Shown: in pieces, positions 25,299-29,456 of the stretch | Layout of the letters: each line of letters starts with the position of its first letter | Numbering within the stretch: the first letter of the stretch is position 1 | Source: Candidatus Woesearchaeota archaeon | GTDB taxonomy: Archaea; Nanobdellota; Nanobdellia; Woesearchaeales; UBA10216 | Reading direction: 5' to 3' | Length of the DNA stretch: 53,350 bases | Assembly (NCBI GenBank): GCA_016188155.1 | Contig: JACPIH010000009.1 | Coordinates: forward strand, 1 to 53,350 | The notes under the pieces: model-generated | Databases searched by the model: none | Told to the model about the DNA's origin: nothing | Seen by the model: only the letters and a program-made list of their open reading frames with translations | Position numbers and translations under genes: made by a program

Positions 25299-27539
25299 GT
25301 GAAAGTGAAAACTGAACCATTGAATGTTAGTTTAGGGGAAGATGAATTGGGGCAGGAACGTAGGTTTAACGGGGACGGTCATAATGGAAATGGGAAAACA
25401 GACACCATAGACCCCAGAACAATGGTTCTTGAAGCACTTCTGGCTCAGGCAGAGAACAACAGATATATTGTGGTAAGGCTCGGCGAAAACCAAGCAATCA
25501 TGGGAGAGGTTGCTGAAGGTGTACGGGAAGCCTTGCACAGCGAGCGCTTGAAAAGTTCTATGCCACCAGGCTATGCACAAAACGTTGATGTGCTTGTTGC
25601 TGCCGATACAGTTCATGCCATACAATACCTTCAGGAGAAGGAGTATCACAGAGTTTCTGGAATTATAATGCATCCTGAAGAAGTGCCTGAGGGCGACCAC
25701 CTATTACGAGTTCTTAATGGTGTCGACACTCATCGCGTCATAGACCTTAGTCAAAAACCATCAATTTTCGCAGGAGGGGTGGTTAATAAGGAAGCCCTGT
25801 TAGAAGAGGTTATAGCAATTTTGCGGCATAATTACAACGTCCTGCAGGAAGTAATATCAAACTATTTACCAAAGGGGGAAGTGCTTTCATCAGGTCTTTT
25901 GCCGCCTGCTAGAATCGGGCAAAATGACATTACACTGGAAGGGATTATAGAAACTAGGGAAGGGCTTAAAGACGCATGGGCAGCTAGAAAAAATGCGGAA
26001 TCCATAAATACAAAGAGAGCGATCGAAGCCAAAAGACCCAGGCAACAGGTAACACAGGTTGTTCCAGAAGATATTCAAAAGGCCATACAAGCACTAGCAG
26101 CAACAGACTACCCGGCGCTAAAAGGGCAGGAGTATGCCGCACCCGTACCTACAGACCCTAAAGACCCTGATTTCTTAAATGACACACGCAGGCTCAGCAA
26201 AGAACTTGGTGAACTTGTGGAGATTATATCGTCTTCTGTGGGTGCTGGAGGCACTCCCGGGCTAACACACTTTTACAGGTACGCGACGAAAGGCATTATA
26301 GGCTTATTCGATGAAAACGTCCAGGCAACACCTGAACAAAAGTTTATCTGGGTCAAGCCTTATAATACAGCTGCAGAGGTCCAGGCTCTTTTCCACCAGT
26401 TCTTATTCAACCAGTTTGATTTGCAAAGAGACAGGGGCATAAATGTTTTGCATGAACCTTTGGCGTACCATTACTCAGAGCGGCTTGATCAATACTTTGT
26501 CATCTCGCGCGCACCCCTACTTGCTATAACTGCTGAAGTTGCGAACCAAGTAAAAAAGCTTGGGCCTGATTTCTTTGATGGTTACCTTGGCGCACTGATG
26601 GAGATAGGGTTTGAACAGCTTGTTAAGTATAAGGGGACAGCACAAACTGGTTTTGATGCAAAACAAAGAACCTTAATATTGCATGGGTACAAGGCAAAAG
26701 CGATAACAGCCAAAGATGATTTGGAAAGGGCTACTGGAGAAAAATTATCAGAAGCGGAGCTGCGTTTATTCTTGGAGTCGTTGGGGACTATTTTTGACGA
26801 CGTATCTCTCTGGGACCCGCAGCTCTTTGGTCCGATTATGGACTATAAACCTTATAACAACGGGAACAGGCTTGGAGTCATAAGACCATCGCCTGAACTA
26901 GTTCGAGCAGTGTTGTTTGGTGGGAGAACAACGCAGCCTGAGAGAGAGTCTGTTACACGCAGCATGAGAGAAACATACGGTATTCTTGAACACGAAGGAA
27001 GACCAGGAATCACTTTAGAAGATTCTTCCCACATGATTGACTCTCCAGAATTACTAATAGAACCTGCCAAAAGGCCACATTTCTTCGTGTCGTACATAAC
27101 GGCAGTGATGCCAAACGCCACAGACCGGGAATTATCCGGCGTATGGCCTGCATATTTTGGAATGGAAGAAGGCAAAACGATTCGTAAAATGCAGCGAACG
27201 GTCCATTACATGATTACGAACTTCAGGAACGCTCCGAGGGAAGAAGTTGGGAAAAATTTTGAAAGCTATTTGGAGGGCTACAGAACTTATGCTGGGTGGC
27301 TAGCTCAGACAGCTTACGCCGCAGTAATTTTAACCTCACAACATTTAGGCGATAAGTTTGACCAGCAAGTAAAAGTGGTAAGTCAGTTATATTCCGAGCG
27401 GGAGCCAAAGTTACCTTCAAGCCCCGGAGCTTTGGCAGCTTTACCGAGGGCTTTCTATGGCACTTTCGTTGCGTTGCAACGCCTCCTTGAACTTGAACCG
27501 AAAGCTGGTTTGCTGCGAAGATTGGATGTTTTGCGCTAA
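25299..27539 (+). CDS. orphan 746-aa protein
   Basis: Long ORF; N-terminal alpha/beta region, middle segment FIWVKPYNTAAEVQALFHQF...YHYSERLDQYFVISRA...MDYKPYNNGNRLG; no family recognised with confidence. Confidence 0.75.
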   Translation: MKVKTEPLNVSLGEDELGQERRFNGDGHNGNGKTDTIDPRTMVLEALLAQAENNRYIVVRLGENQAIMGEVAEGVREALHSERLKSSMPPGYAQNVDVLVAADTVHAIQYLQEKEYHRVSGIIMHPEEVPEGDHLLRVLNGVDTHRVIDLSQKPSIFAGGVVNKEALLEEVIAILRHNYNVLQEVISNYLPKGEVLSSGLLPPARIGQNDITLEGIIETREGLKDAWAARKNAESINTKRAIEAKRPRQQVTQVVPEDIQKAIQALAATDYPALKGQEYAAPVPTDPKDPDFLNDTRRLSKELGELVEIISSSVGAGGTPGLTHFYRYATKGIIGLFDENVQATPEQKFIWVKPYNTAAEVQALFHQFLFNQFDLQRDRGINVLHEPLAYHYSERLDQYFVISRAPLLAITAEVANQVKKLGPDFFDGYLGALMEIGFEQLVKYKGTAQTGFDAKQRTLILHGYKAKAITAKDDLERATGEKLSEAELRLFLESLGTIFDDVSLWDPQLFGPIMDYKPYNNGNRLGVIRPSPELVRAVLFGGRTTQPERESVTRSMRETYGILEHEGRPGITLEDSSHMIDSPELLIEPAKRPHFFVSYITAVMPNATDRELSGVWPAYFGMEEGKTIRKMQRTVHYMITNFRNAPREEVGKNFESYLEGYRTYAGWLAQTAYAAVILTSQHLGDKFDQQVKVVSQLYSEREPKLPSSPGALAALPRAFYGTFVALQRLLELEPKAGLLRRLDVLR

Positions 27540-27545
27540 ACTTTC

Positions 27546-28469
27546 TTACAATGCAAGCACCATGTAAGGGCCTAACATGCAGAATACCCTGTTTGTGATA
27601 TCAATAGAATGGTGTATCATCCAGTAATCTGCGTATGTCAGCTTTCTTTTAAACAGGTCATGTGCCTCGTCAATTACTCTGTTGCGTTCATTCTTCAAGG
27701 CAACAATTTTCGCAGTGTCAAACTTGTAAAACAGCTCGTAATAAAGCCTTAAAAGCTTGCTTGATGACTCAAATAAATCAATGACGTCTTTGTTAAGCTT
27801 AGTTTGAGTGGAACTCAAATTTGCAAAATGGTGGCAGATGTACTTGTACTGGTCAGCAATGTGCTCCAACTCCTCAACAATATAATATAAAGGACCGAGT
27901 TTTTTAAAATTAAAAGCAGAATTCTTCTTATTAAGTGCCCTCCTGCAAATAATCGTGAACCTGTTATTGGCTTCTTCCAAAAGAGCTACGTTCTTTAGAT
28001 GGTCATAGTTCCCTTTCTTAAAAACAGAGACACTATCGTCAGCCATATTAACCAGTAACAAGAATATCCTCCTTAACAGAGAGTCAAAATCCTCTATCAC
28101 GCCGCCTGAAACGTATTTGACAAGGCAGAAGTTCTGCCCCTGCTCAAGGATTTCAAACCCGATGGCTTCCTTGGTAATTGAACTCTGGATGATGGTCGCC
28201 ATTTCGGGCTTGTTGAAAGTAATCCTTAATTCATCAACTCCTCTTTTATAAAGCGACCTTATGCACCTGGGAATCATTTCCCCAAGGTCACTAATGTCAA
28301 GTTCGGCTCTCTCAAGAACTGGAACGTTATCCGCTGTTATTACAACCTTACTCCCATCCTCCTGCACGTCAATCTCCTGCCCCCTTTTGACGTTGTTGCG
28401 GATGGCCCACTGCCTTGGCAGCGAAACCAGCTGGGTTGAGCCTGCAATCTGGATTACCTTGCGCTTCAT
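27546..28469 (-). CDS. AbrB-PhoU fusion regulator (PhoU family)
   Basis: MKRKVIQIAGSTQLVSLPRQWAIRNNVKRGQEIDV followed by helical PhoU-like region. Confidence 0.8.
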   Translation of the reverse strand: MKRKVIQIAGSTQLVSLPRQWAIRNNVKRGQEIDVQEDGSKVVITADNVPVLERAELDISDLGEMIPRCIRSLYKRGVDELRITFNKPEMATIIQSSITKEAIGFEILEQGQNFCLVKYVSGGVIEDFDSLLRRIFLLLVNMADDSVSVFKKGNYDHLKNVALLEEANNRFTIICRRALNKKNSAFNFKKLGPLYYIVEELEHIADQYKYICHHFANLSSTQTKLNKDVIDLFESSSKLLRLYYELFYKFDTAKIVALKNERNRVIDEAHDLFKRKLTYADYWMIHHSIDITNRVFCMLGPYMVLAL

Positions 28470-28554: not shown

Positions 28555-28584
28555 CTTAATAGCACAGCACTTAATAGCACAGCA
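28555..28584. repeat. 15-bp perfect tandem duplication
   Basis: CTTAATAGCACAGCA CTTAATAGCACAGCA. Confidence 0.9.
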
Positions 28585-28728
28585 CTGAAGTATAAGGAAA
28601 TTATAGAAAAAAGAGGCTTTATTTAAAGTTTTCTGTTTTTATGAAAGATTTATACTTTTTATAAAATATAACCGAAAATTATATAAGAGCCAGTGCTTTT
28701 ATAAGCCTTATTCGCCTGTTAGGGTTAC

Positions 28729-28848: not shown

Positions 28849-29193
28849 ATGCACTCAAGCCTATATTCAACGAAGCACGAATGCCTGCTATGCGGGGATG
28901 TGATAACAAACCCGATATGCTACACCTGCCTGGAATCAGAGGTAGAGGAATGGCTCACAGGCAGGATGCCCGCCATAATACCCAAGGTGAAAAAAACAGG
29001 CAAGATTTTCGCCTCTTACACGCACCAGGGAACGAGGTGCATACTTTGCGGAAACAACATGAATGTCTGCACTCACTGCTACTGCTATGAGGTCAACAAG
29101 CTGTTTGAGAACTACCCAAGGCTGGCAGAGGAGTTTGTGGAGTTCTTTAATTTTGAGCTACGAGGAAGCAGCAACTTCGTTACACAGGGATAA
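28849..29193 (+). CDS. small zinc-binding protein with several CxxC motifs
   Basis: HECLLCGDVITNPICYTC, TRCILCGNNMNVCTHCYC. Confidence 0.75.
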   Translation: MHSSLYSTKHECLLCGDVITNPICYTCLESEVEEWLTGRMPAIIPKVKKTGKIFASYTHQGTRCILCGNNMNVCTHCYCYEVNKLFENYPRLAEEFVEFFNFELRGSSNFVTQG

Positions 29194-29205: not shown

Positions 29206-29352
29206 ATGAAAAAGGTGTGGCACACCGAAGTTGGGGAAGACAGCCTTGAGCTGTTAGCTTCAGAAGTAGAAGACCTTGAAAACGACGAGTTGTCAACGGG
29301 CGAAGCCGGCTTCATAAGCGGCTATGAGGAGGAAGAAGAGTACTGGGACTGA
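29206..29352 (+). CDS. 48-aa acidic microprotein (paralogue A; not in ORF track)
   Basis: MKKVWHTEVGEDSLELLASEVEDLENDELSTGEAGFISGYEEEEEYWD. Confidence 0.65.
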   Translation: MKKVWHTEVGEDSLELLASEVEDLENDELSTGEAGFISGYEEEEEYWD

Positions 29353-29456
29353 TGAAAAAGGCGGTATGGTACATTGAGCTTGGCGAAGACGGGCTTGAAA
29401 TAGGCTCGGAGGAAGTCGAGAATAAGGCTGAGAACAATAAAGATTCAGAAGGATGA
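29352..29456 (+). CDS. 34-aa acidic microprotein (paralogue B; not in ORF track)
   Basis: MKKAVWYIELGEDGLEIGSEEVENKAENNKDSEG; TGATG overlap with paralogue A. Confidence 0.6.
   Translation: MKKAVWYIELGEDGLEIGSEEVENKAENNKDSEG

Follow-up and report, generated by a model that had tools for sequence, protein, structure and literature searches.

An acidic protein of 48 residues encoded by a Candidatus Woesearchaeota archaeon belongs to a family that recurs across its phylum, and genes of this family repeatedly stand back to back with a gene for an AbrB-PhoU protein. The window, by which we mean the whole 53,350-nucleotide stretch of DNA that was analyzed, comes from genome G000 (1.08 Mb in 41 contigs). 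The gene for the acidic protein, ORF1, is followed in the window by a shorter relative, ORF2, and preceded by a gene for a small cysteine-rich protein.

ORF1 and its partial duplicate

ORF1 occupies positions 29,206-29,352 of the forward strand, and its product has a net charge of -15, 35% aspartate plus glutamate and no cysteine. A search of the genomes of relatives recovered a homologue in 7/7 genomes of the same genus (E 4e-20 to 2e-14), and most genomes of the same family also carry one. Among seven genus members, differences fell at codon positions 1/2/3 in the ratio 155/50/349, and pN/pS over 36 aligned codons was about 0.21 (0.205), which indicates purifying selection. The other two forward frames over the same DNA gave 1.04 and 2.06, and one antisense frame gave 0.35, as expected where third positions coincide. 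ORF1 is clearly a real, conserved, coding gene. The idea that both ORFs are merely chance open frames, to which their shortness and the missing codon-position signal of ORF2 might point, deserves almost no credence and is already refuted for ORF1 by the gap between its own frame and the other forward frames and by hundreds of homologues. Two of the points on which the first-pass annotation had staked these genes, homologues and a coding pattern of substitution, came out in its favor as far as ORF1 is concerned. No model in Pfam, NCBIfam, PADLOC or PHROGs matched ORF1, an Rfam search at the locus was likewise negative, and no relatives were found among the viral contigs and plasmids searched. 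AlphaFold2, run with an alignment of three sequences, returned a mean pLDDT of 58 and assigned no secondary structure.

ORF2 (29,352-29,456, forward strand, 34 residues) begins within the stop codon of ORF1: the TGA at 29,350-29,352 and the ATG at 29,352-29,354 have one base in common, at TGATG. Both ORFs are present with this overlap and with the sequences first quoted for them. When ORF1 was used to query the whole of G000, ORF2 matched with E = 0.0019 and 52% identity over residues 2-32, a likeness that goes beyond chance. The similarity ends where the conserved core of ORF1 (residues ~24-40) starts, so ORF2 copies the N-terminal half only; it aligned to the family profile at positions 2-21 alone and lacks the core motif. 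Counterparts occur only in G000 and in G007, a species of the same genus, where the ORF (MKKTVWYIELGEDELEIGLEETENKAENE, 29 residues) starts nine bases past the ORF1 stop with no overlap. In the other genus members, the stretch that precedes the ROK gene contains no ORF2-like ORF. The ORF2 sequences of the two species differ at nine sites, two synonymous and seven non-synonymous (3/3/3 by codon position), differences that are compatible with neutrality and too few to decide, so that the coding status of ORF2 is unproven. We read ORF2 as a partial tandem duplicate that is decaying or at most accessory. Of the description of the pair as tandem paralogous microproteins, the paralogy stands; the two are not conserved as a unit, given that the second member is a truncated duplicate confined to two species. 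Nor does the proposed motif MKKxVWxxExGEDxLE serve as a signature, since the family is instead marked by a C-terminal LENDELSxxEAGFxxGY core.

A core motif across the phylum

The core of ORF1 lies at positions 29,275-29,334 of the forward strand (LENDELSTGEAGFISGYEEE) and a search of G000 with the phylum-wide profile recovered it at E = 1.7e-6. The consensus, which lies in the C-terminal half of the protein, reads [ED]LL[ED][DN]DE[LI]SxxE[AE][AG]FMxGY; as a short acidic protein with the core [DN]DE[LI]SxxE[AE][AG]F[ML]xGY, ORF1 is a member of the family. In alignment A1, built from relatives of ORF1, residues D27, E33, G39 and Y40 are invariant and E20, A34 and F36 nearly so. The A1 profile matched 124 of the 192 genomes of the order at E ≤ 1e-3. 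A second profile, A2, made from 42 diverse typed cores (one row is a consensus, and in a few others the flanks were altered slightly), matched 197 of 279 sampled genomes from throughout the phylum (Ca. Woesearchaeota with its relatives, other orders included) at E ≤ 1e-4, or 171/219 when good genomes only were counted; the profile searches covered this phylum, and the taxonomic range of the family is to be read within it. Stand-alone members (n = 123) have a median length of 51 residues, a median net charge of -14 and 36% aspartate plus glutamate. No model in Pfam, NCBIfam, PADLOC or PHROG covers the members, a search of solved structures with the core gave no useful match, and this family of acidic proteins of about 50 residues is unnamed and unannotated.

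The closest described likeness is to SHOCT, a short domain found on many unrelated proteins, mostly at a terminus (PMC3581485). The best match of the core was to PF22746 (SHOCT-like_DUF2089-C), at a sub-threshold E of 0.042 and in 3 of 42 members, and ORF1 itself gave no match to the SHOCT Pfam model. Both are about 30 residues long, and a reading of the sequence predicts an I/L-[ST]-x-x-E-[EA] turn between two short helices in the core. As with SHOCT, the core occurs both alone and attached to many unrelated proteins; unlike SHOCT, it is acidic, has FMxGY at its end and in most cases makes up a free-standing protein. By description the family can also be likened to DUF1127, bacterial small proteins often under 50 residues, for which a role in controlling phosphate metabolism, through binding to the sensor kinase PhoR, is reported in Agrobacterium (PMC12501420). 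Both are small proteins, and here the neighbor is AbrB-PhoU, the host archaeal and the motif acidic.

The attached forms are varied. The core forms a C-terminal tail on ScpB in four genomes of one family, f34 (L094-L096, assigned by Pfam PF04079, and L214, by sequence), and an N-terminal tail on SecF at L097. In 16 members it is followed by a TRASH, zf-FCS (MYM) or YHS-like zinc domain, and G000 has two such fusions to TRASH/YHS-like treble-clef domains, on contigs C12 (L203, 2851-3144, minus strand) and C38 (L204, 2234-2524), one of them divergent from the third AbrB-PhoU gene of the genome. Unlike these zinc proteins, ORF1 has no cysteine, and its zinc neighbor is a different, eight-cysteine protein. 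Eight members carry lysine-rich tails with up to 53% lysine that resemble histone H1 tails; at L211, L217, L218, L219, L161 and L112 the core precedes 70-130 residues rich in K, A and P, as in histone H1 or bacterial H1-like proteins.

Stand-alone members also have recurrent neighbors. In another order, a homologue of the replication initiator Orc1/Cdc6 lies directly upstream of the microprotein on the same strand (14/15), and in such loci from other orders of the class (L184-L200) the microprotein is often followed by a metallophosphoesterase-like gene, named by sequence only. The gyrB gene is downstream of the microprotein in about 11 loci; at L128 (3432-5996), where it is downstream of an AbrB-PhoU/microprotein pair, it contains an intein (Intein_splicing, TIGR01445). 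Chromosome and transcription proteins are the recurring theme of these contexts, with SecF as the exception. We considered a histone chaperone, suggested by the acidic and aromatic residues, as a general explanation and rejected it: G016, G018, G052 and G220 carry the microprotein and have no detectable histone, and many genomes negative for the microprotein do have one.

Genes around ORF1

The gene upstream of ORF1 (28,849-29,193, forward strand) encodes a 114-residue protein with eight cysteines arranged as CxxC-x8-CxxC and CxxC-x6-CxxC, a putative double zinc finger. It ends 12 bp before ORF1. The first-pass description of the ORFs as following a CxxC zinc protein in the same direction is accurate, and ORF1 is probably co-transcribed with the zinc gene. 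The eight cysteines are invariant in a 20-member alignment, and the G007 protein is 89% identical to that of the window. No Pfam family reached its cut-off with this protein, the best match among solved structures was not useful (E 0.048), and AlphaFold2 gave a mean pLDDT of 59 with an alignment of three sequences. Homologues below every Pfam cut-off (L034-L041) are spread over the order, and three of those outside the genome family (L036, L039, L041) lie near a TBP-like gene, named by sequence only.

The small unannotated module suspected downstream of the zinc gene is real: 13/13 zinc genes found in the family of genomes to which G000 belongs directly precede a microprotein, G011 being cut by a contig end. 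This co-occurrence stops at the family boundary: 0/8 zinc homologues outside it adjoin a microprotein. Three genomes of the same family (G010, G013 and G016), in which no zinc homologue was found, have adjacent AbrB-PhoU and microprotein genes, and the zinc gene therefore joined, or stayed in, a pre-existing AbrB-PhoU/microprotein pair. The zinc gene is a local partner of the microprotein, whereas AbrB-PhoU is the wider one.

The AbrB-PhoU gene of the window (27,546-28,469, reverse strand, 307 residues) is divergent from the microprotein operon. Its product combines an N-terminal AbrB/MazE DNA-binding domain (MazE_antitoxin, PF04014, E 1.1e-5) with a PhoU-like helical domain (PhoU, PF01895, E 5.1e-5), both passing the Pfam cut-off, and its profile relatives include the PhoU crystal structures 4q25 and 2i0m. 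The same architecture is known from TK2245 of Thermococcus kodakarensis, an archaeal SpoVT/AbrB plus PhoU protein found on isolated Thermococcus chromosomes (PMC7325993). The literature searched on AbrB/MazE-PhoU fusion regulators yielded no report of a microprotein partner. Next to the AbrB-PhoU gene is an ORF of 746 residues (25,299-27,539) for which neither Pfam nor NCBIfam gave a match.

Among loci retrieved with the microprotein as the sole query, AbrB-PhoU was the commonest neighbor and in almost every case lay upstream in divergent orientation. When 45 good genomes were compared in both directions, 37 AbrB-PhoU genes had a microprotein no more than 1.6 kb away, and 36 of these pairs were divergent; chance alone would yield about 0.2 such neighbors, by a rough estimate based on genome size and copy number. 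The AbrB-PhoU profile drew on microprotein-adjacent genes, and its ranking by E-value therefore favors these; the orientation bias and the adjacency counts are independent of that ranking. After removal of duplicates, a divergent AbrB-PhoU gene lay within 950 bp upstream of 51 of the 166 distinct microproteins, and one lay in another arrangement. All three AbrB-PhoU genes of G000 (C27, C12:25134 and C12:4345) have a divergent microprotein of their own, namely ORF1, a 41-residue protein and a 97-residue protein with a TRASH/YHS-like zinc domain, and G007 has the same three pairs. Other orders show the pairing too (L187, L195, L198), as do families that lack the zinc gene. About two thirds of microproteins are not adjacent to an AbrB-PhoU gene, and the family is present in four genomes with no AbrB-PhoU match (G214, G217, G234, G249). 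No fusion of the two proteins was seen. An apparent co-divergence of paired sequences (rho 0.28) disappeared once duplicate loci were removed, leaving a rho of 0.06 that 110 of 2000 permutations reached.

Between the divergent starts lies a conserved non-coding block of 72 bp (28,618-28,689). All 72 positions are identical in G007, the closest relative, from which the window differs at 31% of ORF1 synonymous sites. Identity is 56-70/72 in the six remaining genus members and 50-51/72 in G013, G017 and G018, while shuffled sequences reach at most 36/72; G013 retains the block even though the zinc gene is missing there. The block holds TTTTATGAAA...TTTTATAAAA dyads (I2 and I4) and a BRE/TATA-like stretch, ACCGAAAATTATATAAG, and is a probable shared divergent promoter/operator. 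Elsewhere in the AbrB-PhoU/zinc intergenic region there is a perfect 15-bp tandem duplication (28,555-28,584, CTTAATAGCACAGCA) that is absent from most relatives.

Possible roles of the microprotein

We tentatively favor the interpretation, to which we would give somewhat less than an even chance, that ORF1 is a docking microprotein that works with and modulates the divergently encoded, co-regulated AbrB-PhoU protein. AbrB-PhoU would bind the TTTTATAAAA-type dyads within the 72-bp block and from there control the zinc-microprotein operon as well as its own gene. The microprotein, small, strongly acidic and probably either a helical hairpin or a protein that passes from disorder to order on docking, would bind AbrB-PhoU through its DELSxxEAxFxxGY core, most likely at the helical PhoU part. 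Such binding could alter the DNA binding of AbrB-PhoU, or could recruit AbrB-PhoU to other chromosomal proteins that bear the motif. We infer the operator function, the physical binding and the direction of the regulatory effect.

Alternatively, the core of about 30 residues might be a promiscuous, SHOCT-like docking tail that binds a single hub, probably associated with the chromosome or the envelope, with AbrB-PhoU as nothing but a frequent co-regulated neighbor. The genomes that have the family without AbrB-PhoU, the missing co-divergence and the lack of fusions make such a general hub nearly as likely as a dedicated AbrB-PhoU partner. It would account for the same core on ScpB, SecF, zinc domains and H1-like tails and downstream of Orc1/Cdc6, and the weak SHOCT-like match agrees with it. 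By itself, however, it leaves unexplained the near-universal divergent orientation of AbrB-PhoU and the hyper-conserved intergenic block, and archaeal histones, as a candidate hub, do not track the family.

Improbable, in our view, is that the microprotein acts as a DNA mimic that displaces AbrB-PhoU, along with other DNA-binding proteins, from the sites they occupy. The charge of the stand-alone members and the DNA-binding proteins encoded by the partner genes are what such a mimic would call for, but conservation is highest at hydrophobic and aromatic residues and at glycine (F36, G39, Y40) as well as at acids, and the fusions to basic tails are easier to reconcile with docking than with mimicry of charge. 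A toxin-antitoxin-like module, in which the MazE/AbrB-fold protein would be the antitoxin and the microprotein a toxin or co-factor, is very unlikely: the MazE_antitoxin domain of the divergent protein is offset by the lack of the usual co-directional, overlapping gene order, by an acidic microprotein that resembles no toxin model, by the many copies per genome in housekeeping contexts, and by the failure of any toxin model to match the window proteins tested for a type II (MazEF-like) system.

A more ambitious reading can be entertained, although we consider it rather doubtful: a previously undescribed acidic docking module of about 30 residues may define a phylum-wide network linking AbrB-PhoU nucleoid/transcription factors, Orc1/Cdc6, the condensin protein ScpB, zinc proteins and H1-like basic tails. 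This cell would have three paralogous AbrB-PhoU systems, and ORF1 would act as the free-standing modulator of one of them.

Archaea with small genomes are believed to retain few dispensable genes, yet at least one member of this family is present in most of the genomes sampled, and its neighbors are often genes for chromosome or transcription proteins. ORF1 illustrates how a product of fewer than 50 residues can keep a conserved gene out of annotations. If docking proves true, the core would be a short peptide bait for a regulatory or chromosome-organizing partner shared throughout a phylum that is almost entirely uncultured.
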